The position numbers and the translations under genes were made by a program. From a virus, in IMG/VR virus record IMGVR_UViG_3300025543_000034, positions 1 to 54,412 of that record: a DNA stretch of 54,412 nucleotides. One strand, written 5' to 3'. Below, one piece after another: positions 10,953 to 44,613 of the stretch (position 1 is the stretch's first letter; the number at the start of each line of letters is the position of its first letter). The notes under the pieces are model-generated. The model was not told the DNA's origin. It saw nothing but the letters and a program-made list of their open reading frames with translations, and did not search any database.

Positions 10953-12284
10953 TTAATATGATGATTCAACAGTGTCAGAAGATACTGCAAACAATTCTCT
11001 TTTTTGGTTTATACTATTGTCTAAGTTAAACTTAAACGTGCTAAAAAATCCTTTTACACCTGTCATACTTGCTCCCCACAATATCTCTCCTTTCCCTGGT
11101 GATGAATTATTTATAATATTAGCAAAGTATTTATTTTCTTTTCTTTTAAATTTATTAGAAAACATTTCGCTTTCTAAATCAGTTAGGTTACTTGGTAAAC
11201 TGTATTTAGATATTGGTACTAAAGCTATGTCACCAGAACTAGCAACTATACTACTAACGGTCCAGTCATTATTACCTTCATAATTAACTGTTTTAAATAC
11301 TTTTACCGTAGATGGTGAAGAGTTTAAAACAACTGTTACATCAGATGGAAATATATTGTCAGGCGCATCGTAAAAACGACCATATGCACTATTGCCATAA
11401 TGACTATATAACTTACCAGCGTTTGTAGAAAAGAAAGTAGATGTTAAACTAAACATAAAGCTTGGTTTAAAACTAAAGAAACTAGTCCAACCTTGCACGC
11501 CTTCATCAAACGAAGTTGTTTTATAACTTGAAGCGGTTTGTATAGACAGCATATAATTTTTAGTATGATTATCCCAACCACCTACTATTCTAGTTATACC
11601 GTCTTGTGTAAGTTGATCTCTAAAGAAATCATGCATACCATAACCTGATATTTCTATAATTTCACCACCTGTTGTTAATCTTAATACACAACCTCTTTTT
11701 CTATCTGTAAAGTATTTTCTATAACCATAAACAGCAAAACTAAAAGGATCTGTAGCTATACCATACTTACCAGCAAATGGAACTATTTGTCCTATAACCA
11801 TTCTACCTGAAGCTGTTAAAGCTTGACCTTCAGCTGTATATATAGCATCTTTATCTATTAAAGCTCTATTAACTTTATCTTCTTGAAATATAATTAAGTT
11901 AGTATCTTCTGCAAATAACTTCTGTATAGAGCCATGTGCTGGATCTACGCTTCTAGTTATGTCTTCACCTACTGAAAATTCATTTGTTTGATTAATACCT
12001 GTTCTAGAGTTAAACACTCCTGAGTATATGATTGTGTTAAACCTATTTTGATTATTAGGATTATCTTCAACTATATGAGCTTTAACGCCTAGATCAGTTA
12101 TAGTGTTGTTATAACCACCTCTTATTCTAGCTTCTTCAATAAACCAATCAGTTGCATTGTCATTAGCATAAGCTTGAGGTACAGTTGCATAAGGCGCTGT
12201 TGGTTGTGGATTAGCATCTACAACGTTTGACATCTTCTTCAACCAGTATGAGTTAAAATATTTTAGTTCTAAAGTAGCGCCCAT
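10953..12284 (-). CDS. Tail/neck structural protein (muzzle-associated)
   Basis: 443 residues, beta-rich, with short motifs I associate with podovirus-like marine and crAss-like phage tail proteins: WFIEEARIRGGYNNT, YSGVFNSRTGINQTNEFSVG, LIIFQEDKVNRALIDKDAIY, and a propeller-like blade (AVYGYRKYFTDRKRG). It follows the 1405-aa protein and looks like a companion to it, possibly the distal part of the same tubular structure. There is no signal peptide. Its 35-bp upstream gap contains AAGTGATA (12295-12302), also found in other gaps. The structural role is well supported by context; the exact position in the virion is not. Confidence 0.65.
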   Translation of the reverse strand: MGATLELKYFNSYWLKKMSNVVDANPQPTAPYATVPQAYANDNATDWFIEEARIRGGYNNTITDLGVKAHIVEDNPNNQNRFNTIIYSGVFNSRTGINQTNEFSVGEDITRSVDPAHGSIQKLFAEDTNLIIFQEDKVNRALIDKDAIYTAEGQALTASGRMVIGQIVPFAGKYGIATDPFSFAVYGYRKYFTDRKRGCVLRLTTGGEIIEISGYGMHDFFRDQLTQDGITRIVGGWDNHTKNYMLSIQTASSYKTTSFDEGVQGWTSFFSFKPSFMFSLTSTFFSTNAGKLYSHYGNSAYGRFYDAPDNIFPSDVTVVLNSSPSTVKVFKTVNYEGNNDWTVSSIVASSGDIALVPISKYSLPSNLTDLESEMFSNKFKRKENKYFANIINNSSPGKGEILWGASMTGVKGFFSTFKFNLDNSINQKRELFAVSSDTVESSY

Positions 12285-12319
12285 ATTCTTTTATTATCAC
12301 TTATTTTTATATATTATTA

Positions 12320-16537: not shown

Positions 16538-16539
16538 GT

Positions 16540-22496: not shown

Positions 22497-24866
22497 TTAC
22501 GCAGGTATTTCTCCTTGCGTTTCAAAATTAGTAGGCGGAAGATCATTTTGTCTTTGACTAATTAATTTTGACTGTTGTGTAGCTTGCATTTCAGTTCGTT
22601 TATCTTTACGATCCTCTATTTGAGCTTCTTTTTTGGTGTTTGTATCTACATCCATTTGTTTAAGTTTCATATCATACTCAAATTCTTGAGCCATTAATTG
22701 TAACTTAAGTTGGTTTTCAGTTTGCATTCTTTGAATTTCAAACTGGGATTTTGCTTGTTCTATTTGTGTTTGAGTTTGAGCTAAGGCTTCACCTTTCTGC
22801 ACCTCTTGCATAGATGCTCTTTCAGATGCTTCAGCATTTGAATCAGCTTGTGCTTGTATATTAGCCATTTGAGCTTGTTGATCAGCTTCTTGCTTTTTAA
22901 CTCTTTTGTATTTTAATACTTGATTAGCTAATGTTAAGTTTCTTATTTCTCTAATATCAATAGCATCTTCAAGATATATTTGATTTTGTTGCAAAGCCAT
23001 TTGAATATTTTGTTCAAGCATAGCTTTTTCTTCTTCTTCTGGTTCTAAATCTAAGTATATACCAAAATCATAAAGATGTAAATCATCTATTTCATGTAAA
23101 GTTGCTACATTAAATTTACCTATTGCCGCTTTTAAAGCATTATTAGTTAAATCAAAATCAAGCATATCAGCTATTCTTAGCGATATATTTTCACATGTTC
23201 TTAATGTTAGATATAAACTAGCATTTAAAATATGTTTAGTAGCTATATTAGAAGCATTGGCAGCCATTTTTTGCAATCCGACTAAAGCGTCTTTGTCTGG
23301 TAAACTGCCGTCTCGCGCTTCATTAAGACCTGTTACGTCTCTTATCATCTGTAAATAATACTGATAAGTATTAATTAATGATGCTATTTTTCCATTAGCA
23401 CTAGATGTTTGTAATTCTTGAATAGGTACTTTACCTCTGTTAGGATCACCATCTTGTGTTAATGATCTACCAACTATACTACCAGTTTGAAAATACATGT
23501 TTAATGCCTCCTGTGGATTGTAATTAGTACCATTACCTAAATCAACCTCTGCTAAACCATCTACATCTACAAACACACCATCTGGAACCATTCTAGCAAT
23601 CACCTGTTGTAATTTAAGTGATGTAAGCTGTATCATATCAGCAAAACCAGTTATACGTCCCACAAGTGAATCTATACGACCTTGATACATATGAGGTGCA
23701 ACAATGTTGTAATTCATATTTACCTTAGTTAAATCACTTTTAGGTCTTGTCATGTTCTCTGACATTTCCCATCTTAACATTTGTTCAACACCCATAACTT
23801 TAGCTCCAGTAAACAATACCTCTATTGTTCTTGAAACTCTTTCAAAGTTATCATTTTCAGGTGGATTAAACGTATCTGGTTTTTCTAACACTTTTTCTAA
23901 ACCATTATCTGTATTTTTAACTTTAAATACTTGGTCTATGTAAGATTTATATTCAAAATAAATAACCTGAACTAAATCATTATCTGAATTAGGAGATCTC
24001 ATGTAAGCTTCTCTACCAGGATATTTTTGTATTTTTTTAAGTTCTTCGTTAGTTAAATTAGGAAATTCCTTTTTTAACTCAGGTATTGTAATAGATTTTA
24101 TTTCACCTACATAATAAAGATCTTGAAAATTAGGATCATTTGTATATGAATAAACTAAATTAGCAGGATCAACATAGTCAATTACCACTCCTTCAGCTTT
24201 GTTAAAACTAGTTTTTACAGCTCCAATACCTACTGTAACTATATCTTCTGTAACTCTTTTGTTAATTAATTCGTATTTATTAAAATCTAATACGTTGTTA
24301 ATAACTTCTTCTTCAGCAATTTCTACAGATTGTTTATAGTTTAATTGCATATGCACCTCAAGTTCTTCTTTTGACTGTGGTAAATTAGTAGGATCAACTA
24401 CATTATAAACATCCACACCTAAATTTTGCTTTATATTATCAAGTAAAGGCTTTGATAACATGTCTCTTAATATAGACGAAGCATAGTTAGTTCTTTGTTT
24501 TTGTGAAAAAGGATCTTGAGCGTAAGCTTTTATATCATAATTTTTTGATGATATACCGTTAACAACTATATCCACAAATTTTGGGATAATAGGTACTGGC
24601 TTCCAGTCTAAATTTAAATAAGATAAATCACCGTTAATTGATAATTCATCTTTATATTTTTGTACAGGTTGTTCACCTCTAGCGTATAATCTTAATCTAT
24701 TAAAGTTTTGAAAACCTTTTTGCCATCTCGTCCCGTTAACTCTTCCACCTCTAAACCATTCATATTCAATGGCTTGCCCTACTTGCAGACCATACTCTAA
24801 ACTAAGCTTTTCTGCGACAGGTACCACCTGACTAGGAAAGGAACTATTAGTACTCGTATTAATCAT
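22497..24866 (-). CDS. Portal protein
   Basis: 789 residues, the size of crAss-like portals. Near the N-terminus it has WFRGGRVNGTRWQKGFQNFN, RLRLYARGEQPVQKYKDELS and LSYLNLDWKPVPIIPKFVDI, a stretch typical of these portals. The middle carries the clip and wing regions; around 520 a loop (GLNEARDGSLPDKDALVGLQ) precedes the long crown helices. The last 150 residues are a Gln/Glu-rich coiled coil (QIEQAKSQFEIQRMQTENQL). It forms the dodecameric DNA gate at one capsid vertex and docks TerL. Its start codon directly follows the TerL stop, and the scaffold and capsid genes come next. Confidence 0.85.
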   Translation of the reverse strand: MINTSTNSSFPSQVVPVAEKLSLEYGLQVGQAIEYEWFRGGRVNGTRWQKGFQNFNRLRLYARGEQPVQKYKDELSINGDLSYLNLDWKPVPIIPKFVDIVVNGISSKNYDIKAYAQDPFSQKQRTNYASSILRDMLSKPLLDNIKQNLGVDVYNVVDPTNLPQSKEELEVHMQLNYKQSVEIAEEEVINNVLDFNKYELINKRVTEDIVTVGIGAVKTSFNKAEGVVIDYVDPANLVYSYTNDPNFQDLYYVGEIKSITIPELKKEFPNLTNEELKKIQKYPGREAYMRSPNSDNDLVQVIYFEYKSYIDQVFKVKNTDNGLEKVLEKPDTFNPPENDNFERVSRTIEVLFTGAKVMGVEQMLRWEMSENMTRPKSDLTKVNMNYNIVAPHMYQGRIDSLVGRITGFADMIQLTSLKLQQVIARMVPDGVFVDVDGLAEVDLGNGTNYNPQEALNMYFQTGSIVGRSLTQDGDPNRGKVPIQELQTSSANGKIASLINTYQYYLQMIRDVTGLNEARDGSLPDKDALVGLQKMAANASNIATKHILNASLYLTLRTCENISLRIADMLDFDLTNNALKAAIGKFNVATLHEIDDLHLYDFGIYLDLEPEEEEKAMLEQNIQMALQQNQIYLEDAIDIREIRNLTLANQVLKYKRVKKQEADQQAQMANIQAQADSNAEASERASMQEVQKGEALAQTQTQIEQAKSQFEIQRMQTENQLKLQLMAQEFEYDMKLKQMDVDTNTKKEAQIEDRKDKRTEMQATQQSKLISQRQNDLPPTNFETQGEIPA

Positions 24867-27071
24867 CTAATTAATTATTTTTGATTTATAACCTTTGTTG
24901 TCATATTTAGAAAAATTTAAACTTACTTTTTCTTTTATAATTTCAGGCACAGGTCTATATTTATTTTTATTACAAGCCATGATAGCTAAGCCAGAGCTTA
25001 TAGATGCATCATGTTTTGTTCTTTTGTTTATATCAAATGCAGCCCAGTCTTCTAATGTTCTTTGAAAATACATTGTTCCATATTGTTCGTTATTATAACC
25101 AACAAACATTTCAATATAAGATTCAATAGCCGCAGCGTGAGCTTGCTTAACATCTTCACTTGAATTAGGTATACCACCTATTTCTTTTTCAGTTACAGAT
25201 AATTTATACATTGTTTTATCTGGTCTGTTCATAGAGTAACCTCTATAACCTCTTCTTTTTAAATGATATAATAATCTAGGTTTATTATTTTCAGCAAGTA
25301 TTGGCATACCATAAAAATGTAATGCCATAAGTACATCTTCAAAAAATGTTTCAGCTGTTTGTGGTCTAGCTATATATTCTAAAAAAAATAAGTTAGGTGG
25401 ACAAGTGTCCATAGTAAACTTAGTTAAACCATGTAATGCACCTTTTGATCCTCTACCATCTACTGTTCCTGATATATCATATGAGTCACATCCAAACGCT
25501 CCCATGTGTTCATTAGCAGGATATTTCATACCATTTTTAACAATAAATCTATTTTGTTGTTGAACATCTGGTACCCAAGAAACTAAAAATCTACCTTGTT
25601 TGCTAGGAACAAACTGAACGCTTGTATCTCTAATCCCACCTTCCCACATAAAATTACCTTGTGTAACAACATTAGAATTTTTTAAATCTTCATTATAATC
25701 TATTTGTTCGTAGATTTTTGTTAAATTAAATAAAGATTGTTTTGTCTCATCTCTAAAAGCATGTTTTTCTGTACGTGGAAACTGTCTATATAATTCATTA
25801 AGTGCATCAGGATCATTCTTAAGGCCATCTACTTCATTTTCCCAGTGTTCGATAACACCGATTTCAATGGGGAAACCATCTGGCCCTTTTTTAGGTTTTT
25901 CCGGTGTCTCAAAGACAGGTAATCCATAAGAATCAATGTATCCTTCGTAATTCCACTCCATAGGAATGAACAGGCTATATAATCCCGAGCTAGTCTGCCC
26001 GTTGCGGTTTCTTCTGGTAACGTCTGAGTCATCATATAATTTTTTATAATTTCTACCTCCTTTATCTAAAGCATTTGACGTTGAGCCCATCATACACTTA
26101 CCTATAATTCTAGAACCTAATCGTAAACAAGTTTTTGTAACCCTCCAGTTATTTAGTATATTGTCAGGTTTTTCCCATTTACCAGACTCATCGTGTACAA
26201 GTAGTTTTAATTTTTCACCATCATAACTGTTGTCTCCTGTATTTTTCCAGTCAATAGTTGTATCTAATCCTTCTAATTCTTCAAGTTGTTCGTTACTATC
26301 TAGTTTACGTCTTGTAAACCTACTAGCAGGAACCCTGTAAGCAAGTTCTGTTTTTGGTCGATCCATACCGTCTTGAATCGGTTTGAAGAAAAACGGATAG
26401 TTGACGGAAATTGGTACGATTTTATCGGTAAACATTTTTTTCGCATCAGCCCCTGACTTTGATAAGACACCGTATCTAGCATCACTAGAGATAGTGGCAA
26501 GGTTGACAGTTTCGCCTGATGCCATGAATGAAAAACCAGACCGTCTGTTTTTGAGGTAGCACATTCCGTAGCAACGTTTATCTGCTTTACAAGCTTCCCA
26601 GAATATAAAGAATAATCTGTTTGCTTCCCTAAAATCTGCTTGCCCAACATCAATCTTGGACCACTGCAGGTACATGTAATGAGTACCAGTAATATAAGTA
26701 GCTTTACCTTTATTAGTGAACCAATAGCCTTCGTGGCGCCTGGCAAATTCTCTATCAATATACGCATACCATTTTTCTTTAAAATCATCTGGATATTGTT
26801 TCCAGTCAAATATTGTTTTAATTTTTTTTAATGCTTTTGGATACTCATGTACTTGCCATTTATCGTAATCCTTATTAACATCTTTTTCTTTTGGTAATGC
26901 TATTTTTAAATTTTGTATTTCATAAACTTCACCTATTTGACCACTCTTAGATATAACTATAACATCGTGTTCTTTGTTATAACCGTACTCCCATTTTTTA
27001 GATTTATTTAATCTTTTTATTACATGGGGTTTTATATGGTCAATTACCTTATATAAAGTTTGCTTATACAT
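24867..27071 (-). CDS. terL: Terminase large subunit
   Basis: 734 residues. ATPase part: a Walker A-like loop at about 174-181 (KNRRSGFS, a terminase-type deviant P-loop), Walker B LLVHDES at 290-296 with the Asp-Glu pair, and a coupling-type MGSTSN at about 328-333. Nuclease part (RNase H-like): first acidic strand GCDSYDIS at about 528-535, later acids near 594 (PILAENN) and in the C-terminal helices. It packages DNA through the portal and cuts it. The length and the extended N-terminal region (about 165 residues before the P-loop) fit crAss-like TerL. The gene overlaps the 91-aa gene upstream by one base (TAATG) and abuts the portal gene downstream. Confidence 0.9.
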   Translation of the reverse strand: MYKQTLYKVIDHIKPHVIKRLNKSKKWEYGYNKEHDVIVISKSGQIGEVYEIQNLKIALPKEKDVNKDYDKWQVHEYPKALKKIKTIFDWKQYPDDFKEKWYAYIDREFARRHEGYWFTNKGKATYITGTHYMYLQWSKIDVGQADFREANRLFFIFWEACKADKRCYGMCYLKNRRSGFSFMASGETVNLATISSDARYGVLSKSGADAKKMFTDKIVPISVNYPFFFKPIQDGMDRPKTELAYRVPASRFTRRKLDSNEQLEELEGLDTTIDWKNTGDNSYDGEKLKLLVHDESGKWEKPDNILNNWRVTKTCLRLGSRIIGKCMMGSTSNALDKGGRNYKKLYDDSDVTRRNRNGQTSSGLYSLFIPMEWNYEGYIDSYGLPVFETPEKPKKGPDGFPIEIGVIEHWENEVDGLKNDPDALNELYRQFPRTEKHAFRDETKQSLFNLTKIYEQIDYNEDLKNSNVVTQGNFMWEGGIRDTSVQFVPSKQGRFLVSWVPDVQQQNRFIVKNGMKYPANEHMGAFGCDSYDISGTVDGRGSKGALHGLTKFTMDTCPPNLFFLEYIARPQTAETFFEDVLMALHFYGMPILAENNKPRLLYHLKRRGYRGYSMNRPDKTMYKLSVTEKEIGGIPNSSEDVKQAHAAAIESYIEMFVGYNNEQYGTMYFQRTLEDWAAFDINKRTKHDASISSGLAIMACNKNKYRPVPEIIKEKVSLNFSKYDNKGYKSKIIN

Positions 27072-27346
27072 TATTTAGATCTTCTTTCTGCAAATCCTCC
27101 AAAAGCTTCTTTTTTCTTTTCTTCTTTTGGTTTATCATTTAACATATCTTCTTCTTCTTTAATACGATTAAGTATTTCAAAAGCATCAAATATAGCTAGC
27201 TTTTTTGTTGCCGCTGCATTTTTTAATCTATCAGCTGATATGTCATCATCAGAATCAACTATAGCTTCTTTAGCTACCTTTATAAGTTCTTCAACCGCTC
27301 TGTGCCCAGCTTGGATTATATTCTTTTTCGTTTCCTTGACGTTCAT
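27071..27346 (-). CDS. Putative terminase small subunit
   Basis: 91 residues, helical, with a Lys/Glu-rich C-terminal tail (NDKPKEEKKKEAFGGFAERR). The helices (KETKKNIIQAGHRAVEELIK, LKNAAATKKLAIFDAFEILN) suit a small oligomerising protein, but no sequence-specific DNA-binding motif stands out. It overlaps the start of TerL by one base (TAATG) and the end of the preceding GroES-like gene by 56 bp. Small terminase subunits usually sit just upstream of TerL, and that position is the main argument. It might instead be another small packaging accessory protein. Confidence 0.5.
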   Translation of the reverse strand: MNVKETKKNIIQAGHRAVEELIKVAKEAIVDSDDDISADRLKNAAATKKLAIFDAFEILNRIKEEEDMLNDKPKEEKKKEAFGGFAERRSK

Positions 27347-27896
27347 ATTTAATTACAATATCATTTGATTTCATACAATAAAGACGCTTGCCATCCACTA
27401 TAAAATCATATTCACCAAACGGTGTGTAACCAACTAGGTCTCCCTCGTATATTTCTAACGCTTCTAAGGAACTATTACCATATTTTAGTATACCAATGAG
27501 TCTTTCTTCTAAATTAGCGTCTAGATCGTCATTGTTATGAATCGGATTTATAAAGCATCTATCACCAAAAGCTTTCCATTTGTCTTTAGATTTATATAAA
27601 TAAACTTGATTTAATTGAACAAAATACATACCGTCTTTAAAATAAGACTTACTATTTTTCTCTTGCCCTCTTATATCAAAAAATCTTCTAAACACATTAT
27701 GATGAATCATAATTAAATCACCTGGTTTTACAGGTGTTTTATAAGCTTTGGGTACAGCTATAACTTTAGCTATGTTATTAACAGATTTAAAACTTTCTGA
27801 TTTAGTGTTAATTATTAGGCTTTTGTCACCTACCTTAACTTCATTATTATATCGCTGGCCGTAAGGCTCAACGATAAAATCAAAAATACTTTTCAT
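27291..27896 (-). CDS. Tandem GroES (Cpn10)-like protein
   Basis: 201 residues. The second half reads like a Cpn10 barrel: an entry strand (CFINPIH), a variable insert, GILKYGNSSLEALEIYEGD, then GEYDFIVDGKRLYCMKSNDI followed by VIKYE. This aligns with the GroES ending (GD, strand, a VDG turn, an S/N-D-I/V closing strand). The first half repeats the plan: an N-terminal strand (IFDFIVEPYG), a Ser/Lys-rich flexible loop (NTKSESFKSVNN), AKVIAVPKAYKTPVKPGDLI and a closing strand (GMYFVQLNQVYLYK). Two Cpn10 units in tandem recall chloroplast Cpn20. It would act in the cytoplasm as a chaperonin lid or, given its place just before the terminase genes, have a specialised head-assembly role. Overlaps (TAATG upstream, 56 bp downstream) suggest coupling. 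Fold is likely; lid function is inferred. Confidence 0.6.
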   Translation of the reverse strand: MKSIFDFIVEPYGQRYNNEVKVGDKSLIINTKSESFKSVNNIAKVIAVPKAYKTPVKPGDLIMIHHNVFRRFFDIRGQEKNSKSYFKDGMYFVQLNQVYLYKSKDKWKAFGDRCFINPIHNNDDLDANLEERLIGILKYGNSSLEALEIYEGDLVGYTPFGEYDFIVDGKRLYCMKSNDIVIKYERQGNEKEYNPSWAQSG

Positions 27897-33024: not shown

Positions 33025-33468
33025 TTATCGGTTTTTATCTTTGTTAACGTTGTTAATGGATGTGATCATTACTTTATCCATATAGGTTTTACCTTTCATT
33101 ATTTTATTACGATGTAAACTTGTAGGTATATCCTCTGTTCCTAGCATAATTCGGTACATACGACTTATTAGTTGTTTACACTTGAAGGAAACTTTATAAA
33201 TATTATACTTTTGGGTTGTGCGATTATGTTTTCTCCAAACCGTTATCCAACCTTCTTTAAGTAATCTGTTCCAGCGTCTATTGTCCCAACTATAAGAATA
33301 CGTACCGATTTTAAAATCTTCTCGTGTAAAAAGATCCATGCAATCGAAATATATTAATAACTCTAAGTCTGCATCATTTAACTCGTAATTTTTACAAGCC
33401 CACTTTCTAATAATTCTATAATGTTTTAAAAGGTTTAACTCTCTTATGTCACTAGGTTCTATTCTCAT
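33025..33468 (-). CDS. Winged-helix (MarR-like) DNA-binding protein
   Basis: 147 residues. Helices LLKHYRIIRKWACKNYELND and ADLELLIYFDCMDLFTREDF are followed by a recognition-helix-like RRWNRLLKEGWITVWRKHNR and a beta wing (TTQKYNIYKVSFKCKQLISR), the order of a MarR-type winged helix. The C-terminus is basic. It may regulate late transcription or bind DNA in packaging. The gene follows groES with an ATGA overlap, so it is likely co-translated with the chaperonin genes. Fold likely; target unknown. Confidence 0.6.
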   Translation of the reverse strand: MRIEPSDIRELNLLKHYRIIRKWACKNYELNDADLELLIYFDCMDLFTREDFKIGTYSYSWDNRRWNRLLKEGWITVWRKHNRTTQKYNIYKVSFKCKQLISRMYRIMLGTEDIPTSLHRNKIMKGKTYMDKVMITSINNVNKDKNR

Positions 33469-33725
33469 AAAACAATAACTACATGATCTAGCTTAACTAC
33501 ATTATAGATTTCGTCTTTAACTTCTATTTGATGTGAATTATTTTTATCAAAATAAATAACATCATTTGTTTTTAAACCACCTGCATCAGCTCCCGCTGAT
33601 ACTACAGTTCCTTCAGCATATCTTATATCTTCTCTTTGTTTTTCACCTAATAGTAAACCACCTTGAGTTTTAGATATACCGGCTTTTGATATTTTAACCA
33701 CTAAGTTTTTACCTATTGCTTTCAT
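33465..33725 (-). CDS. groES: Co-chaperonin GroES (Cpn10)
   Basis: 86 residues from the ATG at 33725; a GTG one codon earlier is possible. It has the full Cpn10 plan: an N-terminal strand (MKAIGKNLVVKI), a flexible mobile loop with a hydrophobic tripeptide (SKTQGGLLLGEKQ, matching GIVL), GTVVSAGADAGGLKTNDVIY, and a closing VKDEIYNVVKLDHVVIVL. It is slightly shorter than the usual 95-97 residues. It caps GroEL rings to enclose substrate. The start lies inside the end of groEL (17 bp overlap) and its stop overlaps the winged-helix gene (ATGA). The order groEL-groES is the reverse of most bacterial operons. Confidence 0.85.
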   Translation of the reverse strand: MKAIGKNLVVKISKAGISKTQGGLLLGEKQREDIRYAEGTVVSAGADAGGLKTNDVIYFDKNNSHQIEVKDEIYNVVKLDHVVIVL

Positions 33726-35268
33726 CACCTATTCTTAAGTTATTGATTACACAATCAGTTGATAAAATAGTAGTAGCTACAGAAGCTGCATTGTTTAAAG
33801 CACTTTTAGTTACAAGTAAAGGATCAATAATCCCTGACTCAATCATATTTACCATATTTCCTGTAACAACATTTATTCCATATCCTGTAACACTAGGCGT
33901 TTCATATTGTTCTATACCTGCATTATGTAATATGGTCTTAAAAGGCGCCTTAATAGCTTCTAGTAGCGCTTCTTCTGACTTATCACTAGCTTCTATATCA
34001 TTAGCTGCGTTTAACAAAGCGATACCACCACCAGAAACTATACCTTGTTTGATAGCAGCTTTAGTTGCGCATATAGCATCTTCAACTCTAGCTTGTTTTT
34101 CTTGTAGTTCAACCTCTGAATTAGCACCTACTTTTACAATAGCTACTTTAGCTGATAATCTAGCTAATCTTTTTTCTAATTTAACAGTTAAGACAGGATC
34201 AGTACATTCTACTAATTCTTTTTCCATCTTGTTAATCATAGATTTAACCTCTTCAGTTGTTTCTATTAAATGTAAAACTGTTTCATTTTCTTCAGTAACA
34301 CTTTTTTTAATTTCACCTAAATGCTCAGGGCCAATTAAATCAATGTCATCACCTAGGTCTTCGTTTATAATTGTTGCTCCTGTTAACATAGCAAGATCAT
34401 CTAATGTTTCTTTCTTACTTATACCGTATACAGGTGCATCTATTACGTTTACTTTTATATTACCTTTAACTTTATTCATAGCTAAAGCTGATAACACTTG
34501 TTGGCTAACGTCAGCTATAATAAGTAAAGATCTGTTATTTTTAATAGCATGTTCTAAGACATTTTGTATTTTTCTTATGTTTTCTATTTCTGATTCAACT
34601 AATAATACTAATGGCTTATCTAGTTCAGCAGTTTTAGATTCTTTGTTTGTTACAAAATGTATATTCTTTAATCCTCTATTATAAGGAACACCATCAACTA
34701 ATTCAAATGTAGTTTCTGGTAATTCTGTTGGTTCTAACACAACAACCCCGTTTTTACCTACAGATCGAAATGCATCAGCTATAATTTTACCAAGCTCTGG
34801 ATCGTTGTTTGTAGATATAGTTGCAACTTGATCTATCATATCTCCTTTAACAGGTATAGAGTTTTCTTTTAAATGATCAATTACTTTTTGTGTTGTTGAT
34901 AAAATACCTTGTTTTATTTCTCTGGATGTAAACTTTTTTTCTAGTTTATAAGCTTCTTCTAGTATTGAATGAGCTAATACTGTAGCTGTTGTAGTTCCAT
35001 CTCCAGCTTCTTTAACAGTTTTTCTTGCAGCTTCTTTTAATAAAGTCGCACCCATGTTTTCTACTGGATCTAAAAGTATAACTGATTCTGCTACTGTTAC
35101 ACCATCTTTTGTAATAATTGGTTTGCCTGTTGTATCTTCTAAAATAACACACTTACCGCTAGCCCCTAATGTGGAGCTAACAGCTTGTGTAAGTTTCGTA
35201 ATACCAGCAAACACATTGTTTTTAGCATCCGAACCAAAGTTCAGATTTTTTACAATTGCATTTGACAT
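33709..35268 (-). CDS. groEL: Chaperonin GroEL (Cpn60)
   Basis: 519 residues, near the bacterial 540-550. The ATP site is kept: ITKDGVTVAESVILLDP, GDGTTTATVLAH (Asp90 in the position of E. coli Asp87), a VEDAICATKAAIKQGIVSGGG-type segment holding the catalytic Asp, and IDPLLVTKSALNNAASVATT. The apical domain is full length. The C-terminus ends INNLRIGDESNR and lacks the Gly-Gly-Met tail. It is divergent throughout, so this is a phage-adapted chaperonin rather than a recent host copy. It should fold phage proteins such as capsid or fibre subunits. It follows a Cys-rich 106-aa gene; a 9-bp dyad upstream of that gene (35657-35679) may control this group. An A/T-rich leader precedes the ATG. Confidence 0.92.
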   Translation of the reverse strand: MSNAIVKNLNFGSDAKNNVFAGITKLTQAVSSTLGASGKCVILEDTTGKPIITKDGVTVAESVILLDPVENMGATLLKEAARKTVKEAGDGTTTATVLAHSILEEAYKLEKKFTSREIKQGILSTTQKVIDHLKENSIPVKGDMIDQVATISTNNDPELGKIIADAFRSVGKNGVVVLEPTELPETTFELVDGVPYNRGLKNIHFVTNKESKTAELDKPLVLLVESEIENIRKIQNVLEHAIKNNRSLLIIADVSQQVLSALAMNKVKGNIKVNVIDAPVYGISKKETLDDLAMLTGATIINEDLGDDIDLIGPEHLGEIKKSVTEENETVLHLIETTEEVKSMINKMEKELVECTDPVLTVKLEKRLARLSAKVAIVKVGANSEVELQEKQARVEDAICATKAAIKQGIVSGGGIALLNAANDIEASDKSEEALLEAIKAPFKTILHNAGIEQYETPSVTGYGINVVTGNMVNMIESGIIDPLLVTKSALNNAASVATTILSTDCVINNLRIGDESNR

Positions 35269-36083: not shown

Positions 36084-39000
36084 TTAATTTTCTAATTGTT
36101 CTATTCTTAATTTTAAATTATCTATTATCTCTTGTTGTTCTTGCATAGCTTTTACAAGCATTGGAACTAAAACAGAGTATTTTACAGATTTATATACTTC
36201 ACCTTCTGGTCCATTTTCTATATCAGGTTGTTTATCTTCATCAACTAAACCAGGAAAAACATCTTCTACTTCTTGTGCTATTAAACCTATTTGTTTTAAA
36301 TTATCACCTCTAAAATTAAAGTTTTTAACTCTTAATTTTTTAATATCTTCTAGTTTTGGGGTAGCATCAACAACGTTTTCTTTTAATCTTATATCTGACA
36401 ATTGACCATAGCTGTTATTAAGGTTATTTATATTACCATTACCGTATATAATAATTGTATTTACGCTATTAGCTTGGTTAACCATCCAATACCAATTAGT
36501 TGCTGCGGTTTTAGAGGTATACATTAACATTTGCTCTACAGTTGTATTAGAATGTCCTTGTAATTTAAAAGGAACACCATTACTGGCTGTAGCTGTTAAA
36601 TGTAATGTGGCACTTGGAGACGCGTTATTTATACCAACTTCACCATTTGACTCAATATAAACTCTTCCTGAGCCATTAGTTCCTAATGTCATTTTGTTAT
36701 TACTGTGATCATAATCCACATAACCACCTAACCCATTTTCGTCTTCAAAATGAAAATGACCAACTGTTGAAGAGCTAGAGTTTAATATTAAATCAGAAGT
36801 ACCAGAAGTTGTCCCACATATTAAATTACCTGAAACCTGCAGTTTAGCATTAGGACTTGTCACACCTATTCCAACATCCCCATTTTGATCAATAGTTAAT
36901 CTTTGTTGAGGACTAGAACCTATACTGTTGCTAGAAGTAAAAAATTTTAATATACCACCACCACTAGATCCTTGACCGGGTCCTTGTGCTACTGAAGCTA
37001 TTATTTGAGAACTACAATATCCGTTTGTTGAGTCATCTTTTCCAACAAATTGAATAACTCCTAAATCATCACCTGCTGATATAACCGTTTCTTGATTTAC
37101 AAAAGTAGCAACCCCGGCAAAACCTCCTAAACCACTACTCATAAAACCTCCTATAACAAGATCACCATTACCATTAGCCCAATTAGTAGGAGAATATCCA
37201 TATGTTGGCTTATTTAATAATGTACTTTTTATAGATATAGAACCTGTATTTGTAGAACCAACTGATGAATTACCACTTGCAAATATTCTTCCGTTAACTT
37301 CTAACTCTCTACTAGGACTCGATGTTTGAATACCTAAACGCTTGTTGCTGTTGTCCCAATAAAAATCATTATCACCTGAAATATTGGTAGAGCTTGTCCA
37401 AAATGAAGCTTGACCAGCAGCACCTGTTCCTGTAACCGTTCCAGTGTTATTTGTAAAAGGTAAATCAGAAACATTAGCTCTAGATATTATTTCTTGATTA
37501 CTCGTTCCTAAATAAATAATTTCACCTTGTGTTGGCACTGTTGTTCCTCTATCATCTGCTGGACCATTTTTTATAAAGTTATTACTACCACTATAACTTA
37601 TATAATTTATATCAGCATTTATTTGAGTTGCTGGATTACCACTAAAATTAATTCCATTACCCGCTGTATATGTTGTATTATTATCTGTCCAAGGAACATT
37701 GACAAACATTTTTTCACTACTCAACTCAACAGGGTAATTTTTTCCGTTTTCAGAATAACCTATTTGGACGCCTCCTCTAGTTCCATTAGCAGCTAAAGGT
37801 AATGAGTAAACTGTATCAGGTGATGTTAGTGTCATTACAAATGGATCACTTGTACTGCCCACACCTGTAAGGTTTGTGCTTAACGCACCTGTTGCTGTTA
37901 CAAATTTTAAATATTTTGCGTCGTTAATAGTTTTATCATCATCACCAGAATCTCTTACATACCATTTTGTATTTTCTTGAGTATTTTCATATTCAGGTAT
38001 ATTTAAAACACCTGCGCTAAGCGTTGAAGCCCCTGAAGTTCCTGTTGTTGTTAAACTTGTTACAAGACCATCTCCAGTTCCAGCACCAATTTTTGTTCTA
38101 ATAGTCGCAGCTGTTACATTTGCGTTTCCAAACGACATATTTCCCTGCGCATCATCTACTATTATAGCTGGTAAACCTGTATCACTTATTGCTGTACTTG
38201 CTATTGTTATCGTGCCATTATTACCAGATATTGATATATCATTACCATCAGCAAAAGTAACTGTACTAGTAGAACTATCACTACCTGTTAAAGTTATTAC
38301 TTTAGTATTACCACTTCCTATAGTATATGTTGTATTATCATTATCTGAATAGCTAGGCACGTCCCACGTATTGTCTTTGCTTAAAAATCTTGTAGATGTA
38401 CTAGAAGTTCCATCAACAGCTGATAAATCTATAGTACCCATTGTTACAGCTCCTGTGGCTGTTGAATTTTCAGTAGCTGAAATATAAGTTCCATTAGTAT
38501 TTGTAAAAGTTTCTACACCTTGGTTGTCAGGTGGAGTAGCCCAAGTACCATCACCTTTTAAAAATTTAACATTATCCGCAGCTGCGGGAGCAGGCACTAA
38601 ACCTGATGTACCCGCGTTTGTACCATCAGCACCTGTAAACGCACTATATGTTGTTTCATTTACCCACGTGGCATCTCCTCTTAAAAATTTACCTTCTGCA
38701 CCAGCTGGTGGGGCTACAACTAAACCGCTTGTTCCAGCCGTATTAGCACTAGCTCCTGTAAAATTACTATATGTTGTGTTTGTATCTGGCGATGTCAATG
38801 TCATTACAAAATTACCAGCACTAGGTTCTGTTAATACTGTACCTAAAGGTCCTGTCGCAGTTACAAATTGTATTGTTTCTCCACTATCAACTACACTTGA
38901 AGCTGGATTTGTCGCATTGTCTTTTATAGTCCAATTATATGTTCCACCACTTGACCAAGGCACGTTAACAACCAATTGATCACTAGCATTTTTTGTTACA

Positions 39001-41105
39001 CCATAAGTTCTACCTGCCGTTTCTGATTGAGCTTCTGCAGCTGGTGTAGAACCAAAATCGTATCTAATTTTACCAAGACCAAGTGTGCTAGTAGTCATTG
39101 CACTGTATGTGGTATCTGTATCTACCCAAGGTACGTTAACAACTAAGTTACTACTATTGTTATCTAATTGTACTGCATAAGTTCTGTTAGCCGTTGTAGA
39201 TAAGCTTTCAGGTGCGTTACCAGCTGTTGCATCTACATTAACATCAAACTCTAATGTGTTTAATGTTAAACCAGTTCCAGCTGTATATTCTGTATTAGTA
39301 TCTGAAGCTGCAATAGTAAAGTTATTAGCATCAGTATATGTAAAAGTTATATTAGCACCTTTAACTATTTTTATGTCTTGCGTTCCACTTCCAGCACCAC
39401 TTAAAACTTTTCTTAATATTATATCGTTTGTAGATTGTTGCCAAGAGTTTGTATATATGTTTTGTGTATTAGTGTCTGTTGTATAAGCAGGCACCGCCCA
39501 AGTATTATTTTTTGTTAAGAATCTTTGTGATGTACCAGTATTGTTTCCATCAGCAGCACTTAGATCAGCTGTAACTGTTACAGCGCCTGTTGTTGCATTA
39601 TTAGGTGTTAAATCAATAAAAGTGCCATCAGTAGTTGTTATACTAGTTACACCGGAGTTTGTAGCCGGTACTCTAGTCCAAGCGGTTCCATCATAAACAG
39701 CCCAATCACCTAAATTCCACGTGCTAGGTGGGTTTGTACCACCATTAGGATATGCAGTTCCAGCCACATCACATATCCATAAAAAACCAGCACCTTTATT
39801 GGAAGCATCAGTTAAATCTGGTGTTCCACCGCCACCGCCTGAAGCATCCCAAGTTCCTTTAAACTGTAAACCAGTAGGTATTGCAGCCCAAGTTCCATCA
39901 CCTTTTAAATAAGTTGTTCCAGTTCCACCCTCTGGTACGTAACCTACGTTAGCCCCACCAACGTATTTTGCCGATGTTAATGTTAATTCTCTATTTGTTA
40001 TACTTTCCGAAAGAGGTGCACCTGTAGAATCTGCTGTAGCTAAAGTAACTCCAGTTACACCAGTGTCTGTACCAGTTAAAGTTATTGTATTTCCCGTTTG
40101 TGAAGCTGCAACATTTCCAGAACCTAGTATTAAAACAGTTCCACCACTATCACTTAATAATACACCAGAGTCAGTGTTGTCTGATCCAGTACCTGTAATA
40201 GTTTGAACAGTTTGAGTATCTGTCCAAGGTACGTTAACATACATTTGATCTGAGTCAAGCTCTACGGGATAATTTTTAGCATTTTCTGTATATCCAATTT
40301 TAACACCACCTAAATCTGAAGATGTAGCAACCGGTAATACATAAGGTGTGTCAGTCCAAGGAACGTTAACAAACATTTTTTCACTACTAAGTTCTACAGG
40401 ATAATTTTTACCGTTTTCTACATAACCTATTTGTACACCACCTCTTGTACCATCAGCAGCTAAAGGTAAAACATATGGTGTATCAGTCCAAGGAACATTT
40501 ACATAAGCTTGTTCATTGCTTAATACAACAGGGTAGTTTTTTGCATTTTGAGTGTAACCTATTTTTATACCACCAAGTGCTACAGTTGTTGCAACTGGTA
40601 AAACATATGGTGTTGGTATAGTTGGAAAAGTAACTAAGTTACCTAAACCATTTATATATTGAGCAGCTGTACCCGCACCTGTAACTGTTAACGTTCCAGA
40701 CTGAGTTATTGGTGAATTAGCCACTGTAAATGCAGCTGGCATTGACAAACCAACACTTGTCACACCTTGAGCAGCAACATTGACCCATTGCGTTCCTGTA
40801 GCTGTAGAACTTAACAACTGACCTGCTGTCCCTGGTTGATTGCTTGAATCATAGTATCCACCTGCAACTTTTAAACTATTAGATATAACAATAGAGTTAG
40901 TTGTTGTATTACCTATATTCGTAACTTGTTGCAGATTTTGTGCTGCACCTTGGGCCGCAACTAAATCAAGCAATGACCCAACCGTAAAACTAACTGTAGG
41001 ATTACCAACAACTGGATCCTGCGCATTTTCATCATAAGTTACAGTACCTATAAGTAAATCATCTCTTTTCGGTGTGTTTAAAGGATACGAATATATTATT
41101 GCCAT
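36084..41105 (-). CDS. Tail fibre with S74 chaperone domain
   Basis: 1673 residues. The N-terminal anchor is MAIIYSYPLNTPKRDDLLIG then GNPTVSFTVGSLLDLVAAQG, shared with the 1236-aa and 207-aa proteins. Next come three tandem 44-residue repeats (consensus TPYVLPVAT...GG.KIGY..N.KNYPV.L......VNVPWTD), a GTWDA/GDWAVYDGTAWTRV module, long beta-rich Thr/Ser/Asn repeats, then GIGxTSP motifs. The last about 105 residues are an intramolecular chaperone (peptidase S74): SDIRLKENVVDATPKLEDIK, GLIAQEVEDVFPGLVDE and a terminal coiled coil. The S74 domain trimerises the fibre and then cuts itself off at the Ser-Asp. The protein binds the host surface. Confidence 0.85.
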   Translation of the reverse strand: MAIIYSYPLNTPKRDDLLIGTVTYDENAQDPVVGNPTVSFTVGSLLDLVAAQGAAQNLQQVTNIGNTTTNSIVISNSLKVAGGYYDSSNQPGTAGQLLSSTATGTQWVNVAAQGVTSVGLSMPAAFTVANSPITQSGTLTVTGAGTAAQYINGLGNLVTFPTIPTPYVLPVATTVALGGIKIGYTQNAKNYPVVLSNEQAYVNVPWTDTPYVLPLAADGTRGGVQIGYVENGKNYPVELSSEKMFVNVPWTDTPYVLPVATSSDLGGVKIGYTENAKNYPVELDSDQMYVNVPWTDTQTVQTITGTGSDNTDSGVLLSDSGGTVLILGSGNVAASQTGNTITLTGTDTGVTGVTLATADSTGAPLSESITNRELTLTSAKYVGGANVGYVPEGGTGTTYLKGDGTWAAIPTGLQFKGTWDASGGGGGTPDLTDASNKGAGFLWICDVAGTAYPNGGTNPPSTWNLGDWAVYDGTAWTRVPATNSGVTSITTTDGTFIDLTPNNATTGAVTVTADLSAADGNNTGTSQRFLTKNNTWAVPAYTTDTNTQNIYTNSWQQSTNDIILRKVLSGAGSGTQDIKIVKGANITFTYTDANNFTIAASDTNTEYTAGTGLTLNTLEFDVNVDATAGNAPESLSTTANRTYAVQLDNNSSNLVVNVPWVDTDTTYSAMTTSTLGLGKIRYDFGSTPAAEAQSETAGRTYGVTKNASDQLVVNVPWSSGGTYNWTIKDNATNPASSVVDSGETIQFVTATGPLGTVLTEPSAGNFVMTLTSPDTNTTYSNFTGASANTAGTSGLVVAPPAGAEGKFLRGDATWVNETTYSAFTGADGTNAGTSGLVPAPAAADNVKFLKGDGTWATPPDNQGVETFTNTNGTYISATENSTATGAVTMGTIDLSAVDGTSSTSTRFLSKDNTWDVPSYSDNDNTTYTIGSGNTKVITLTGSDSSTSTVTFADGNDISISGNNGTITIASTAISDTGLPAIIVDDAQGNMSFGNANVTAATIRTKIGAGTGDGLVTSLTTTGTSGASTLSAGVLNIPEYENTQENTKWYVRDSGDDDKTINDAKYLKFVTATGALSTNLTGVGSTSDPFVMTLTSPDTVYSLPLAANGTRGGVQIGYSENGKNYPVELSSEKMFVNVPWTDNNTTYTAGNGINFSGNPATQINADINYISYSGSNNFIKNGPADDRGTTVPTQGEIIYLGTSNQEIISRANVSDLPFTNNTGTVTGTGAAGQASFWTSSTNISGDNDFYWDNSNKRLGIQTSSPSRELEVNGRIFASGNSSVGSTNTGSISIKSTLLNKPTYGYSPTNWANGNGDLVIGGFMSSGLGGFAGVATFVNQETVISAGDDLGVIQFVGKDDSTNGYCSSQIIASVAQGPGQGSSGGGILKFFTSSNSIGSSPQQRLTIDQNGDVGIGVTSPNAKLQVSGNLICGTTSGTSDLILNSSSSTVGHFHFEDENGLGGYVDYDHSNNKMTLGTNGSGRVYIESNGEVGINNASPSATLHLTATASNGVPFKLQGHSNTTVEQMLMYTSKTAATNWYWMVNQANSVNTIIIYGNGNINNLNNSYGQLSDIRLKENVVDATPKLEDIKKLRVKNFNFRGDNLKQIGLIAQEVEDVFPGLVDEDKQPDIENGPEGEVYKSVKYSVLVPMLVKAMQEQQEIIDNLKLRIEQLEN
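40222..40617 (-). repeat. Three 132-bp tandem repeats in fibre gene
   Basis: Units start at 40222, 40354 and 40486, exactly 132 bp (44 codons) apart, each beginning with GTCCAAGG on the plus strand. A fourth diverged copy starts at 37687. They encode beta-rich units of the fibre shaft. Confidence 0.85.
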
Positions 41106-41106
41106 A

Positions 41107-44100
41107 TTATTTATTTTCTAATTCTTTTACTCTTGCTTCTAATTCTTGTACTGCCGCTACCAATAGTGGTACTAATTTAGCTTGATCTATACCTTGTGGT
41201 ATAATACCACCTTCTTCATCAACTTCATCTTTTTCTCCTACAATAGCTTCAGGAACTATATCTTGCACTTCATGTGCTATAAATCCATCTACTACTTTAC
41301 CAGGCTCTTCTATAAAATTAAATCTACTTGGTTTTAATTGATTAAGTCTAGATATAGAATCACTTATTGGAATAATATTTTCCTTTAATCTATAATCAGA
41401 ACTTGTAACATATGAAGTTGCTGAACCGGATGTAGATATTCGCCCTACATAAGCTTGACTTGTTCCTGGATTTTTATGGTAAAATTCTATTTGATTAGTT
41501 CCAAATTGATTACTACCAAACATCATTATATTTGCAGCTGTATCAGGAACATAAAACATACTATTTCCACCACTAGCAAAAAAGTTACTTGCAGCAAATC
41601 TAGCTGTAAATACATTAGTAATTGTGGTTGTAGGCCCAGTATGTAAAGTTGTTTGCGGAGATGTATTTCCAATCCCTACGTTTCCATCATTCAACACGGT
41701 CATTTTTGTAGAATAAGTAGTTCCATCATAGCTACCAATAGTTAATACACCTTGCCCAGTTGAGGTTTTGTTTGGAAAATAAATACTATGTTCATAAGCA
41801 GCACCACCCATATCTGTACCTAAACCCATCCAAGCATCTGCATCCGCATCTAAACCATAAGTTTGTATTCTTGGGCCACCAAAGAAAGCTCCACTGACCA
41901 TAATAGCAGGTGTAGCAGCATTAACTTTAGCTACTGATAATCTATAATCTGGACTTGTATCTCCAATCCCGACATTACCGCCAGATAGTATAGACATTCT
42001 TTGTATGCCAGATGTAGCAAAAACTAAATTTTGAGCTTCAGTGGTCCACAAAAAAGCATGAGAATCATTAACACCTAATCTTAATCCGTGAGTTTGTGTA
42101 CCTCTTGTAATCTTCATTCCAATATTACCACTAGCGGATGAAGTATGTAAATTTAATTTATCTTGAGGCGAATTCGTCCCGATTCCTACGTTGCCTCCAC
42201 CTTTAACTACCATTCTTGCAACACCACTTGTTCCTAAAACAACAAAGTCTTGTCCATTTCTAGGCTCAACAACTAAATTACCAGATGTTCCCGTAAATGG
42301 ATATGCACTACCCGTATTTTCAGTAGAGTATATTGTAGAATATGTTAAATTAGAAGCCGCTACTATATTATTTCTAATACCTATTCTTCCTCCATTTATA
42401 TCTAATTTACTAGCAGGCGAAGAAACTCCAATTCCTAAGTTCCCTCCTAATACATTTATAAAACTATTAGCACCATCATTTGTTAATCTATAAGCGTAAT
42501 TACCTTGTGGACTTGTGTCAAAACCTGCTAAATATCCAGAAACAAAAATACTTCCTCTAACGTCTAATTTAGTTAGTGGACCAGTCGTTCCAATTCCTAC
42601 ATTATAATCAGAAGCAAATTTACCCATTGTAAGCATATTGGTTATATTACCACCTGATGAAATTACATCAAAATATGCAACCTCTCTATCGCCATCTTTT
42701 CTTCCAGCTTTTATTAATAAACCTCTGTCATTTGAATGATTAATAAGTATTGCTGAACCAGTATTATTACTATCGTTTCCTGCTTGAAATCTAGCTGCTA
42801 AATTATAAGTGCCTGCTGTGCTTGGGCCAACAACGTGTAGCTTTGGGACATTTATTGTTAAATCACCATCATTAGGCGATGTAGTTCCGATTCCTACGTT
42901 ACCATCACCGTTGATACGCATTCTTTCTGCATTATTAGTTCTAAAAGCCATATGGTTGTCAGCGTGGTCATAACTAATTCTACCAATATCATTATCACTT
43001 GCATCACCAAAATCAATAAAAGTTTCTAAGCCGTCAGCACAATTAAATCTTAAACCATCTTGGTCAGCGTGGCTAATGTTTAATTTCATATTTGGCGAAG
43101 GAGTTCCAATTCCTACGTTTCCAGAACTGTCTATACGCATTCTTTCTGAACCATTTGTTACTATTCTATAAGGATGATTAGATAAAGTACCATTAGTCAT
43201 TCCATTAGTCGAATCAGGATAAATATAAGCATCGACAGAATTATCTGAACTTCTTAATCTTATTCCCCCTGCTTTTGAAGTGACTGTACCTTTTATATGT
43301 AAAGTTGTAGCACCAGATGAAATTGAAGATGGGTCTGTTTCATTTATTCCTACATTCCCTCCAGAAGCTATACGCATTCTTTCTGCTCCCCCAGTATAAA
43401 ATTTCATTGGTACACTTCCGTCAGCAAGCAAACTTACTTCATCACTATCAGTATATACTCTAAAAAATCTTGTACCATCGCCGAATCTTGCAACATTACC
43501 TGAAACTTGTACGTCTAATTTATGTGCAGGCGAAGTCGTTCCGATACCTACGTTCTGATTAAAATAAGTATTACCATTTTGCAGCATTACCATATGATAG
43601 TAATTAGCAGTACCTAATCTATACGATTCATCAGCTAAAACTAAAGCAGAACCCATTACAGTATCGGTTGCTGGTTTTGTAATAAATAAACCTGATCTTG
43701 TGTTTTCTGACCTTAATTGCAAAGAAGCATCTGTATTTCTTTTTAAATAATTTAAACCATTTGCTGTTATAGGTCCATAAAAAGTAGATGTAGCACTAGT
43801 GCCATATGCAAAATTTGAACCACCATAAACTGAAAGACCTTGGTTAGGGGTACTAGTTTCTCCTTGGCCCCAACCTGCCGGATTTCCAATACCTACTTTG
43901 TTATATAAATGCATGAACTCATTGGTAAATTGGCCTCTAGCACCTTTAAAATGTATAGATTCAGAAGCTGTAAATGAAGTTAATGTTGAAAAAGTTTTAT
44001 TGGCGGTTATTGTTTGAGCTGTACCAATGGTTACATAAGGACCACCTGGTGGACTCAAATTGTCTACATAATCTTTAGTTGCAAAATTTGCAGCAGCAGT

Positions 44101-44613
44101 AGGTGTTATACCACTTACTAATCCTGTAAAAGTTGTAGTGCCTCCAGTGGTCATCTCCATTATGTTTGTAGTGTTATGCCTTATACTAAACAAATTAGAG
44201 TTTGCTGCTGGATACCTAACTAATGTCCATTGACCAACGCCACTTCCACTTGTTCCACTAACTGCACCAAGAACTAAACTAGAATAATCATTAGAACCAG
44301 GAAACATTCTAATGTTTTCATTATAACTATTACCATTTGATATTTGAACCGTTGAAAAGGTTGCGGTTGTTCCAGTTAAAACTCCACCAACAGTAAATGA
44401 TATACCAGAAGCCGTAGCTGTAGCACCAGTAAGCGTACCTCCAGATAAAGGTAAATACGGTCCACCAATAACGGTTGAAGCGTCAACCCAAGTTGGGGCT
44501 GCATTACCGTTTGATTTTAATATCTGTCCACTAGTTCCATGAGATGTACTGAATAGTATAGCCCCAGTGGAATGGACGTCAAATAATCCGTTTATATTAG
44601 ATAATGATGCCAT
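41107..44613 (-). CDS. Tail fibre with S74 chaperone domain
   Basis: 1168 residues. The N-terminus MASLSNINGLFDVHSTGAIL is the second anchor type, shared with the 704-aa and 612-aa proteins. The shaft contains about nine GNVGIGxTSP units, each followed by a KLxV strand and a 50-100 residue beta segment. The C-terminal S74 domain begins SSDYRLKENIIPISDSISRL and continues DGFIAHEVQDIVPEAIVGEK to a coiled-coil end (LEARVKELENK). It differs clearly in sequence from the S74 domains of the other two fibres. It lies 1 bp from the 1673-aa gene and abuts the 704-aa gene. Probable receptor-binding fibre. Confidence 0.83.
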   Translation of the reverse strand: MASLSNINGLFDVHSTGAILFSTSHGTSGQILKSNGNAAPTWVDASTVIGGPYLPLSGGTLTGATATASGISFTVGGVLTGTTATFSTVQISNGNSYNENIRMFPGSNDYSSLVLGAVSGTSGSGVGQWTLVRYPAANSNLFSIRHNTTNIMEMTTGGTTTFTGLVSGITPTAAANFATKDYVDNLSPPGGPYVTIGTAQTITANKTFSTLTSFTASESIHFKGARGQFTNEFMHLYNKVGIGNPAGWGQGETSTPNQGLSVYGGSNFAYGTSATSTFYGPITANGLNYLKRNTDASLQLRSENTRSGLFITKPATDTVMGSALVLADESYRLGTANYYHMVMLQNGNTYFNQNVGIGTTSPAHKLDVQVSGNVARFGDGTRFFRVYTDSDEVSLLADGSVPMKFYTGGAERMRIASGGNVGINETDPSSISSGATTLHIKGTVTSKAGGIRLRSSDNSVDAYIYPDSTNGMTNGTLSNHPYRIVTNGSERMRIDSSGNVGIGTPSPNMKLNISHADQDGLRFNCADGLETFIDFGDASDNDIGRISYDHADNHMAFRTNNAERMRINGDGNVGIGTTSPNDGDLTINVPKLHVVGPSTAGTYNLAARFQAGNDSNNTGSAILINHSNDRGLLIKAGRKDGDREVAYFDVISSGGNITNMLTMGKFASDYNVGIGTTGPLTKLDVRGSIFVSGYLAGFDTSPQGNYAYRLTNDGANSFINVLGGNLGIGVSSPASKLDINGGRIGIRNNIVAASNLTYSTIYSTENTGSAYPFTGTSGNLVVEPRNGQDFVVLGTSGVARMVVKGGGNVGIGTNSPQDKLNLHTSSASGNIGMKITRGTQTHGLRLGVNDSHAFLWTTEAQNLVFATSGIQRMSILSGGNVGIGDTSPDYRLSVAKVNAATPAIMVSGAFFGGPRIQTYGLDADADAWMGLGTDMGGAAYEHSIYFPNKTSTGQGVLTIGSYDGTTYSTKMTVLNDGNVGIGNTSPQTTLHTGPTTTITNVFTARFAASNFFASGGNSMFYVPDTAANIMMFGSNQFGTNQIEFYHKNPGTSQAYVGRISTSGSATSYVTSSDYRLKENIIPISDSISRLNQLKPSRFNFIEEPGKVVDGFIAHEVQDIVPEAIVGEKDEVDEEGGIIPQGIDQAKLVPLLVAAVQELEARVKELENK

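Follow-up and report, generated by a model that had tools for sequence, protein, structure and literature searches.

A Bacteroidota phage lineage with its own GroEL, a gp31-like trimmed GroES and a second, predicted two-barrel Cpn10-like protein

A chaperonin gene string on the minus strand

The stretch of DNA analyzed here, referred to as the window, is the whole of IMG/VR virus record IMGVR_UViG_3300025543_000034, a linear record of 54,412 bases on which nearly all long genes lie on the minus strand, and its source is an uncultured flavobacterium-type phage. The following genes are discussed below.

33709-35268, minus strand: groEL, a group I chaperonin (Cpn60) of 519 aa and 55.7 kDa (PF00118, phrog_5725)
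33465-33725, minus strand: groES (Cpn10), 86 aa from an ATG start (PF00166)
33025-33468, minus strand: orf147, 147 aa, no assigned function (phrog_17028, unknown)
27291-27896, minus strand: second Cpn10-like protein, 201 aa, two predicted barrels (phrog_13932, "co-chaperonin GroES")
27071-27346, minus strand: 91-aa ORF from the ORF listing, between the second Cpn10-like gene and the terminase
24867-27071, minus strand: terminase large subunit (phrog_6681, E 4.8e-163)
22497-24866, minus strand: portal protein (phrog_6547, E 1.3e-147)
19788-21266, minus strand: virion structural protein, candidate major capsid protein, 492 aa, 52.8 kDa (phrog_13704, E 3.4e-94)

Tail, holin, endolysin, terminase, portal and structural genes run in the same direction as groEL and groES. 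The terminase is 63% identical to that of Manatee Spring podovirus and 44% to that of Elemovirus, and Pfam and PHROG searches with the adjoining 91-aa ORF returned no match. Relatives of the 492-aa protein bear a structural-protein annotation, and we take it to be a candidate for both the major capsid protein and the chaperonin client. Elsewhere in the window, positions 36084-48566 hold four successive large tail-fibre-like genes, three of which resemble one another C-terminally, with PHROG tail-fibre hits in common, and look like duplicated receptor-binding modules, and positions 1468-8994 hold a 2508-aa ORF with neither a Pfam nor a PHROG match.

The groEL and groES genes overlap by 17 nt, counted from the groES ATG at 33725, which is a likelier start (86 aa) than the in-frame GTG at 33728 (the listed 87 aa); groES in turn overlaps orf147 by 4 nt (ATGA). 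A scan of viral contigs identified a GroEL of the window type on at least 570 IMG/VR contigs, and our locus statistics rest on the best 80 of these relatives, in all of which groES lies downstream of groEL and overlaps it. Counted from the longest groES start, the overlap over these 80 loci is 17 nt (28 loci), 23 nt (24), 20 nt (19), 1 nt (4), 4 nt (3) or 26 nt (2). This conservation is consistent with the translational coupling proposed in a preliminary description of the locus, although an overlap alone is no proof of it. A homologue of orf147 is found in 79 of the 80 loci, and the 4-nt overlap with groES is identical in 78; judging from this arrangement, the chaperonin unit may include orf147 as its third gene. 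We considered and rejected orf147 as a known regulator, a Pfam search having returned no family, and its PHROG match, phrog_17028, is of unknown function. In Manatee Spring podovirus, a distant relative of orf147 (29%) is encoded at 16224-16700 on the other strand and overlaps groES at its end.

The phage GroEL is near-standard

The groEL ORF runs without an internal stop, and its product matches PF00118 (E 3e-55, profile positions 1-487 of 490 covered), phrog_5725 (E 2.6e-134) and, along its full length, bacterial GroEL structures (best E 6e-113). We read individual residues, in E. coli numbering, from an alignment of the protein with 80 relatives and E. coli GroEL. At the ATP site, D52, D87, T89-T91, D398, G414-G415 and D495 are all kept and the catalytic residues are invariant among the 80 family members, bearing out the full-length Cpn60 with its ATPase residues that had been described from the sequence. 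P33 is replaced by Ala, as it is in every relative with that column, and the inter-ring contacts E434, S463 and V464 vary in the alignment. Among the apical residues that bind clients and GroES, F204 and L237 are unchanged from E. coli, while Y199L/I, S201N, Y203H/N, L234Q, V263A and V264M are fixed in the family, and this surface, set family-wide in a form different from that of E. coli, suggests specialization. The GGM tail, already noted as missing from the window GroEL, is absent from 80 of the 80 nearest relatives too.

As a group I GroEL, the protein is near-standard and comes with a GroES of its own. It shares with the giant-phage chaperonins (phiEL gp146, OBP gp246, AR9) the property of being a phage-encoded Cpn60, but gp146 of phiEL, at only 22% identity to GroEL, shows no interaction with the GroES of E. 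coli (PMC7185714).

The phage GroES has a longer mobile loop and no roof

GroES matches PF00166 (E 1.9e-10) and carries a mobile loop with its hydrophobic tripeptide (GG-LLL), so that the overlapping Cpn10 with a mobile loop also stands as first described. The tripeptide takes the form L-(L/F/I/M)-(L/I) in every family member, and G23 and L24 are invariant. We then compared loop lengths by counting the residues between fixed positions in one alignment of all GroES sequences. The roof segment (E. coli G44 to D63), 18 residues long in E. coli, spans 12-18 residues in 32 Bacteroidota hosts, ten of which have 13, and is down to 9 in the family (105 of 106 members), whereas the mobile-loop segment (K13 to G38) has 27-28 residues in the family against 24 in E. 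coli and all hosts. In the window GroES, the roof hairpin is absent (9 residues) and the mobile-loop segment has 27. Since the roof segment of flavobacterial-type hosts is already shorter (13), part of the roof loss predates the phage. The segment also has 9 residues in Elemovirus, Manatee Spring podovirus, Maribacter phage Panino and Bacteroides phage DAC19, and the missing roof of DAC19 GroES means that this change is not unique to the window lineage.

These two changes are reminiscent of T4 gp31, a phage co-chaperonin with longer mobile loops and missing roof loops that give a larger chamber with a wider opening; they are generally believed to allow folding of the 56-kDa capsid protein gp23 (PMC6318259). 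Gp31 works with host GroEL, whereas the window GroES has a phage GroEL encoded beside it, and gp31 and the window GroES have no special kinship of fold. An AlphaFold model of GroES (pLDDT 87.4, with lower confidence at residues 11-30) matches Cpn10 structures in Foldseek (E 2e-6, TM up to 0.78), and 1g31 (gp31) comes 15th among the matches (E 1.7e-4), below bacterial Cpn10. The window GroES resembles gp31 in design, through its loop lengths only; its modelled fold is no nearer to gp31 than to bacterial Cpn10, and we do not class it as a gp31.

Phage GroEL-GroES pairs are widespread and their order follows lineage

A complete phage-owned pair in the groEL-groES order is present in the window, as the preliminary description had it, and in its 80 best relatives, but the earlier view that such a pair is uncommon has to be given up. 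Beyond the IMG/VR contigs counted above, this order is annotated in 68 Elemovirus records (cultured) and in Manatee Spring podovirus. Panino has it as well; the record table carries no annotation for its GroES, but the Panino paper does name homologues of GroEL and GroES (PMC11590407). Altogether 268 phage records contain a GroEL, 210 of them covering at least 80%, a count that includes some bacterial DNA under phage names. One record, CAKLQH020000021 (Acinetobacter phage MD-2021a), in which groS-groL lies between lipid kinase and diacylglycerol kinase genes, looks like bacterial chromosome and inflates phage GroEL counts. In the literature, GroEL is reported in 36 of 78 genomes of one marine Bacteroidetes phage group (Nishimura et al. 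2017, PMC5332604), and some phages are stated to have GroEL plus GroES (PMC7185714). Phage GroEL/GroES pairs and the groEL-groES order are therefore already known in deposited isolates, and as a headline they are ordinary.

Bacterial operons had been said to run groES then groEL, and groES does precede groEL in 32 of 32 Bacteroidota host genomes sampled. The groES-first order is also that of Immutovirus, DAC19 and Pervagoviridae. Given that groEL comes first in 80 of 80 relatives, Elemovirus, Manatee Spring podovirus and Panino, in contrast to these hosts, the order is a lineage trait rather than an oddity. Subunit gene order was reportedly linked to GroEL phylogeny by Marine et al. in 2017. 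In DAC19, positions 3718-3981 encode an unannotated roofless GroES upstream of an unannotated GroEL, so roof loss occurs with the groES-first order too. The Crassvirales phages cr108_1 and phi14:2 have a GroEL and, by PF00166 across their whole records, no Cpn10; the GroES of the host, or a strongly diverged lid, may serve instead. On a further contig, IMGVR_UViG_3300050343_000104, GroEL (3674-5191) and the terminase (10823-13038) are split over several frames. TAG recoding was rejected here, as reading TAG as sense restores neither gene, and the broken genes are likely frameshifts or assembly errors.

Among cultured and named phages, Elemovirus (e.g., vB_FspP_elemoF_6-3D, MT497071) and Manatee Spring podovirus (MW202828) resemble the window in having overlapping genes in the groEL-groES order, a roofless GroES, a second Cpn10-like protein upstream of the terminase, and related terminase and structural genes. 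Unlike the window, they have no same-strand orf147 relative directly after groES; the Elemovirus GroEL is far diverged (~39% identical to that of the window), and the Elemovirus pair lies on the strand opposite the structural genes. Pervagoviridae (Cellulophaga phi38:1, Calle_1), of which cpn10 is listed as a core protein (PMC8776804), share with the window a GroEL, a single Cpn10 and a two-domain Cpn10-like protein adjoining the terminase, but place groES before groEL, and Calle_1 GroES keeps 16 roof residues.

A Cpn10-like protein with two predicted barrels is encoded upstream of the terminase

The second Cpn10-like gene, separated from the terminase by one small ORF, matches phrog_13932 with an E of 5.3e-26. 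AlphaFold predicts two barrels for its 201-aa product (pLDDT 86.9), and the best PDB match of this model in Foldseek is 7ekq_R, a two-domain Cpn20 (E 4.9e-6), with a TM of 0.57 to Cpn20 over both domains compared with ~0.30 to single Cpn10. By hhalign, domain 2 is a Cpn10 (P 6e-8) from which the mobile loop is deleted. Domain 1 gave a P of 0.017, no better than controls; we rejected it as a Cpn10 by sequence, and the tandem nature of the protein accordingly rests, for domain 1, on the predicted fold. This domain does contain a lower-confidence segment, probably flexible, in which an L-I-x-N motif is conserved, the kind of feature that a mobile loop would show. Chloroplast Cpn20 likewise has two Cpn10-type barrels per chain beside a separate Cpn10 (7ekq_R; PMC5780408), but it is 16% identical to the window protein, whose domain 1 is Cpn10 by predicted fold only and whose domain 2 has no mobile loop throughout the lineage. 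The two-domain co-chaperonin, which forms seven-barrel hetero-rings with Cpn10, has been called unique and placed in chloroplasts (PMC5780408). In the literature searched we found no paper describing a phage tandem co-chaperonin, and depositors have labeled the two-domain proteins only as cpn10, GroES or hypothetical.

The gene is present in 67 of the 80 family loci and in 49 of the 49 that show the terminase. Conversely, GroEL and GroES are encoded at every locus that was retrieved by the second Cpn10-like protein and extends ~6 kb upstream of it, and this protein occurs together with GroEL in Elemovirus, Panino, Manatee Spring podovirus and Pervagoviridae. GroEL is encoded by all nine long contigs (57-64 kb) outside Pachyviridae that were found through the two-domain protein, and by neither of two further, Pachyviridae-type contigs. 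The Pachyviridae Cellulophaga phi46:3 and phi13:2 encode, like the window, a two-domain protein one ORF upstream of the terminase and a single Cpn10, but no GroEL was found in them, and they would use that of the host. Their domain 2 differs from that of the window in aligning with the bacterial mobile loop (SLIYIPEDNKEKT), a canonical loop of the GroEL-binding type being kept. Gundel_1 has none of GroEL, single Cpn10 and two-domain protein, and profile searches revealed no two-domain homologue in the Crassvirales phi14:2 and cr108_1, in DAC19 or in immuto.

From its position always closely upstream of the terminase, the two-barrel protein might be a Cpn10-derived component of the head or packaging machinery rather than a co-chaperonin. 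A Cpn10-like domain 2 devoid of its mobile loop, a domain 1 unrecognizable as Cpn10 by sequence, and the presence of the protein in the GroEL-free Pachyviridae would all fit such a role, which we consider a real possibility, if a somewhat doubtful one. The canonical loop retained in domain 2 of Pachyviridae argues against it, as does the probably flexible L-I-x-N segment of domain 1. We regard a second, specialized co-chaperonin as the likeliest role. It is possible, from the one GroEL-free lineage, that the tandem lid first used host GroEL and lost one loop after the phage gained a GroEL of its own. A full two-lid virus chaperonin, in which a roofless Cpn10 is matched to its own GroEL and a tandem Cpn10 in the packaging module has been re-tuned from use with host GroEL, is a tentative and rather unlikely extension of this idea.

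A probable late folding chamber with the capsid protein candidate as its likely client

What the analysis shows is the genes, their overlaps, conservation and loop lengths, and the predicted folds; that the genes are co-transcribed and their products assemble, how large the cage is, what it folds and what the second protein does, we infer from these. The groEL/groES pair very probably works as a folding chamber. The earlier idea of a self-contained chamber is upheld insofar as the pair is complete, but it falls short in that lid-like proteins number two in this set; neither the likeness of the lid to gp31 nor the second Cpn10-like gene had a place in that account, and the minus strand and the 4-nt overlap of orf147 were left out as well.

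On balance, we favor as probable a late, phage-owned GroEL/GroES cage with a gp31-like lid that folds phage late proteins, the capsid protein first. GroEL, GroES and the orf147 product would be made from one overlapping gene string, co-directional with the lysis, packaging and head genes. GroEL would combine a preserved ATPase core with a family-specific apical surface for binding clients and lid, and the phage GroES, with its longer mobile loop and no roof hairpin, would cap it. By analogy with T4 gp31, the capped chamber may be roomier or open-topped, and its most likely client would be the 52.8-kDa capsid protein candidate; the ground for this proposal is that GroES repeats the two changes of gp31 in a phage with a capsid candidate of this size. 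The two-barrel protein and GroES may form mixed seven-barrel rings, after the fashion of chloroplast Cpn20 and Cpn10, or the former may attend to a single head or packaging client. In phi38:1, a cultured relative carrying all three of GroEL, single Cpn10 and two-domain protein, mass spectrometry detected GroEL peptides both in infected cells and in samples of free virions (PMC13288928), indicating that such genes are expressed.

Alternatively, the phage chaperonin could support the infected cell without any special client, by folding host and early phage proteins or by replacing a host GroEL that slow-growing marine flavobacteria might have in short supply or have turned off. An intact ATPase core and the broad conservation of the phage GroEL are compatible with such general service, and gp31 can take the place of GroES for every GroE-dependent protein of E. 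coli (PMC6318259). The family-wide apical changes, and the place of groEL/groES among same-strand lysis, tail and packaging genes, speak against it, and we regard it as unlikely while still giving it some weight. It is far less credible that the phage GroEL acts outside folding, for instance as a virion-associated or host-interaction protein: its peptides do appear in the phi38:1 free-virion samples, but these derive from lysates and may contain cell proteins, and throughout the family GroEL retains its ATPase residues alongside a matched, overlapping GroES.

The phage GroEL is not a recent host acquisition

In a maximum-likelihood tree, the window GroEL and its IMG/VR relatives form a clade with other Bacteroidota phages (SH-aLRT 95) that attaches near Bacteroidota GroELs, host GroELs falling outside it, although long branches leave the order of the deep phage lineages unsure. 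Among solved structures, the one nearest to the window GroEL in sequence is that of a reconstructed ancestral Fibrobacteres-Chlorobi-Bacteroidetes chaperonin, which fits a Bacteroidota origin. Identity of the window GroEL is 36.8-40.3% to hosts and up to 94.4% to phage relatives. The data reject a topology in which a single branch sets the hosts apart (p-AU 0.0018), a result that would follow from repeated acquisition of GroEL by phages; the GroELs of Vibrio phages phiKT1024 and Va1 branch apart. The GroEL phylogeny, one of the checks that the preliminary description called for, places the protein in a phage clade, and together with the low host identity it rejects recent capture. That the genes are a recently captured host operon or a decaying passenger has next to no probability, as their affinity to Bacteroidota is only general, while host identity at or below 40.3%, the phage clade, the conserved gene order, loops and overlaps, and a GC content of 32.0% against 33.2% for the window all contradict it.

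Ten contigs from bacterial or archaeal genomes encode a window-like GroEL, and the tree puts each of those included in it within the phage clade. The metagenome-assembled genomes with phage-type GroEL/GroES are labeled Flavobacteriaceae, Aliivibrio, Euryarchaeota, Chloroflexi, Maricaulis, Alphaproteobacteria, Sphingobacteriales and Rickettsiales. A separate, ordinary GroEL is present in four of five checked, which together with the phage-clade placement suggests that these contigs are probably mis-binned phage.

Discussion

What is less expected than the gene pair itself is a gp31-like lid encoded alongside a phage GroEL and a two-barrel protein in the packaging module, both of putative function. 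In this large flavobacterium-phage lineage, the phage's own GroEL is joined by a GroES with the two gp31-type alterations and by a two-barrel Cpn10-like protein. Cultured members with and without GroEL (Elemovirus, Callevirus, Pachyviridae) exist, which makes it testable why phages bring folding machinery and for which client. The two-barrel protein is a natural candidate for a two-barrel co-chaperonin outside plastids, where this form has been called unique, and, if it does enter mixed seven-barrel rings of Cpn10 and a Cpn20-like protein, these would be an independent invention in viruses.
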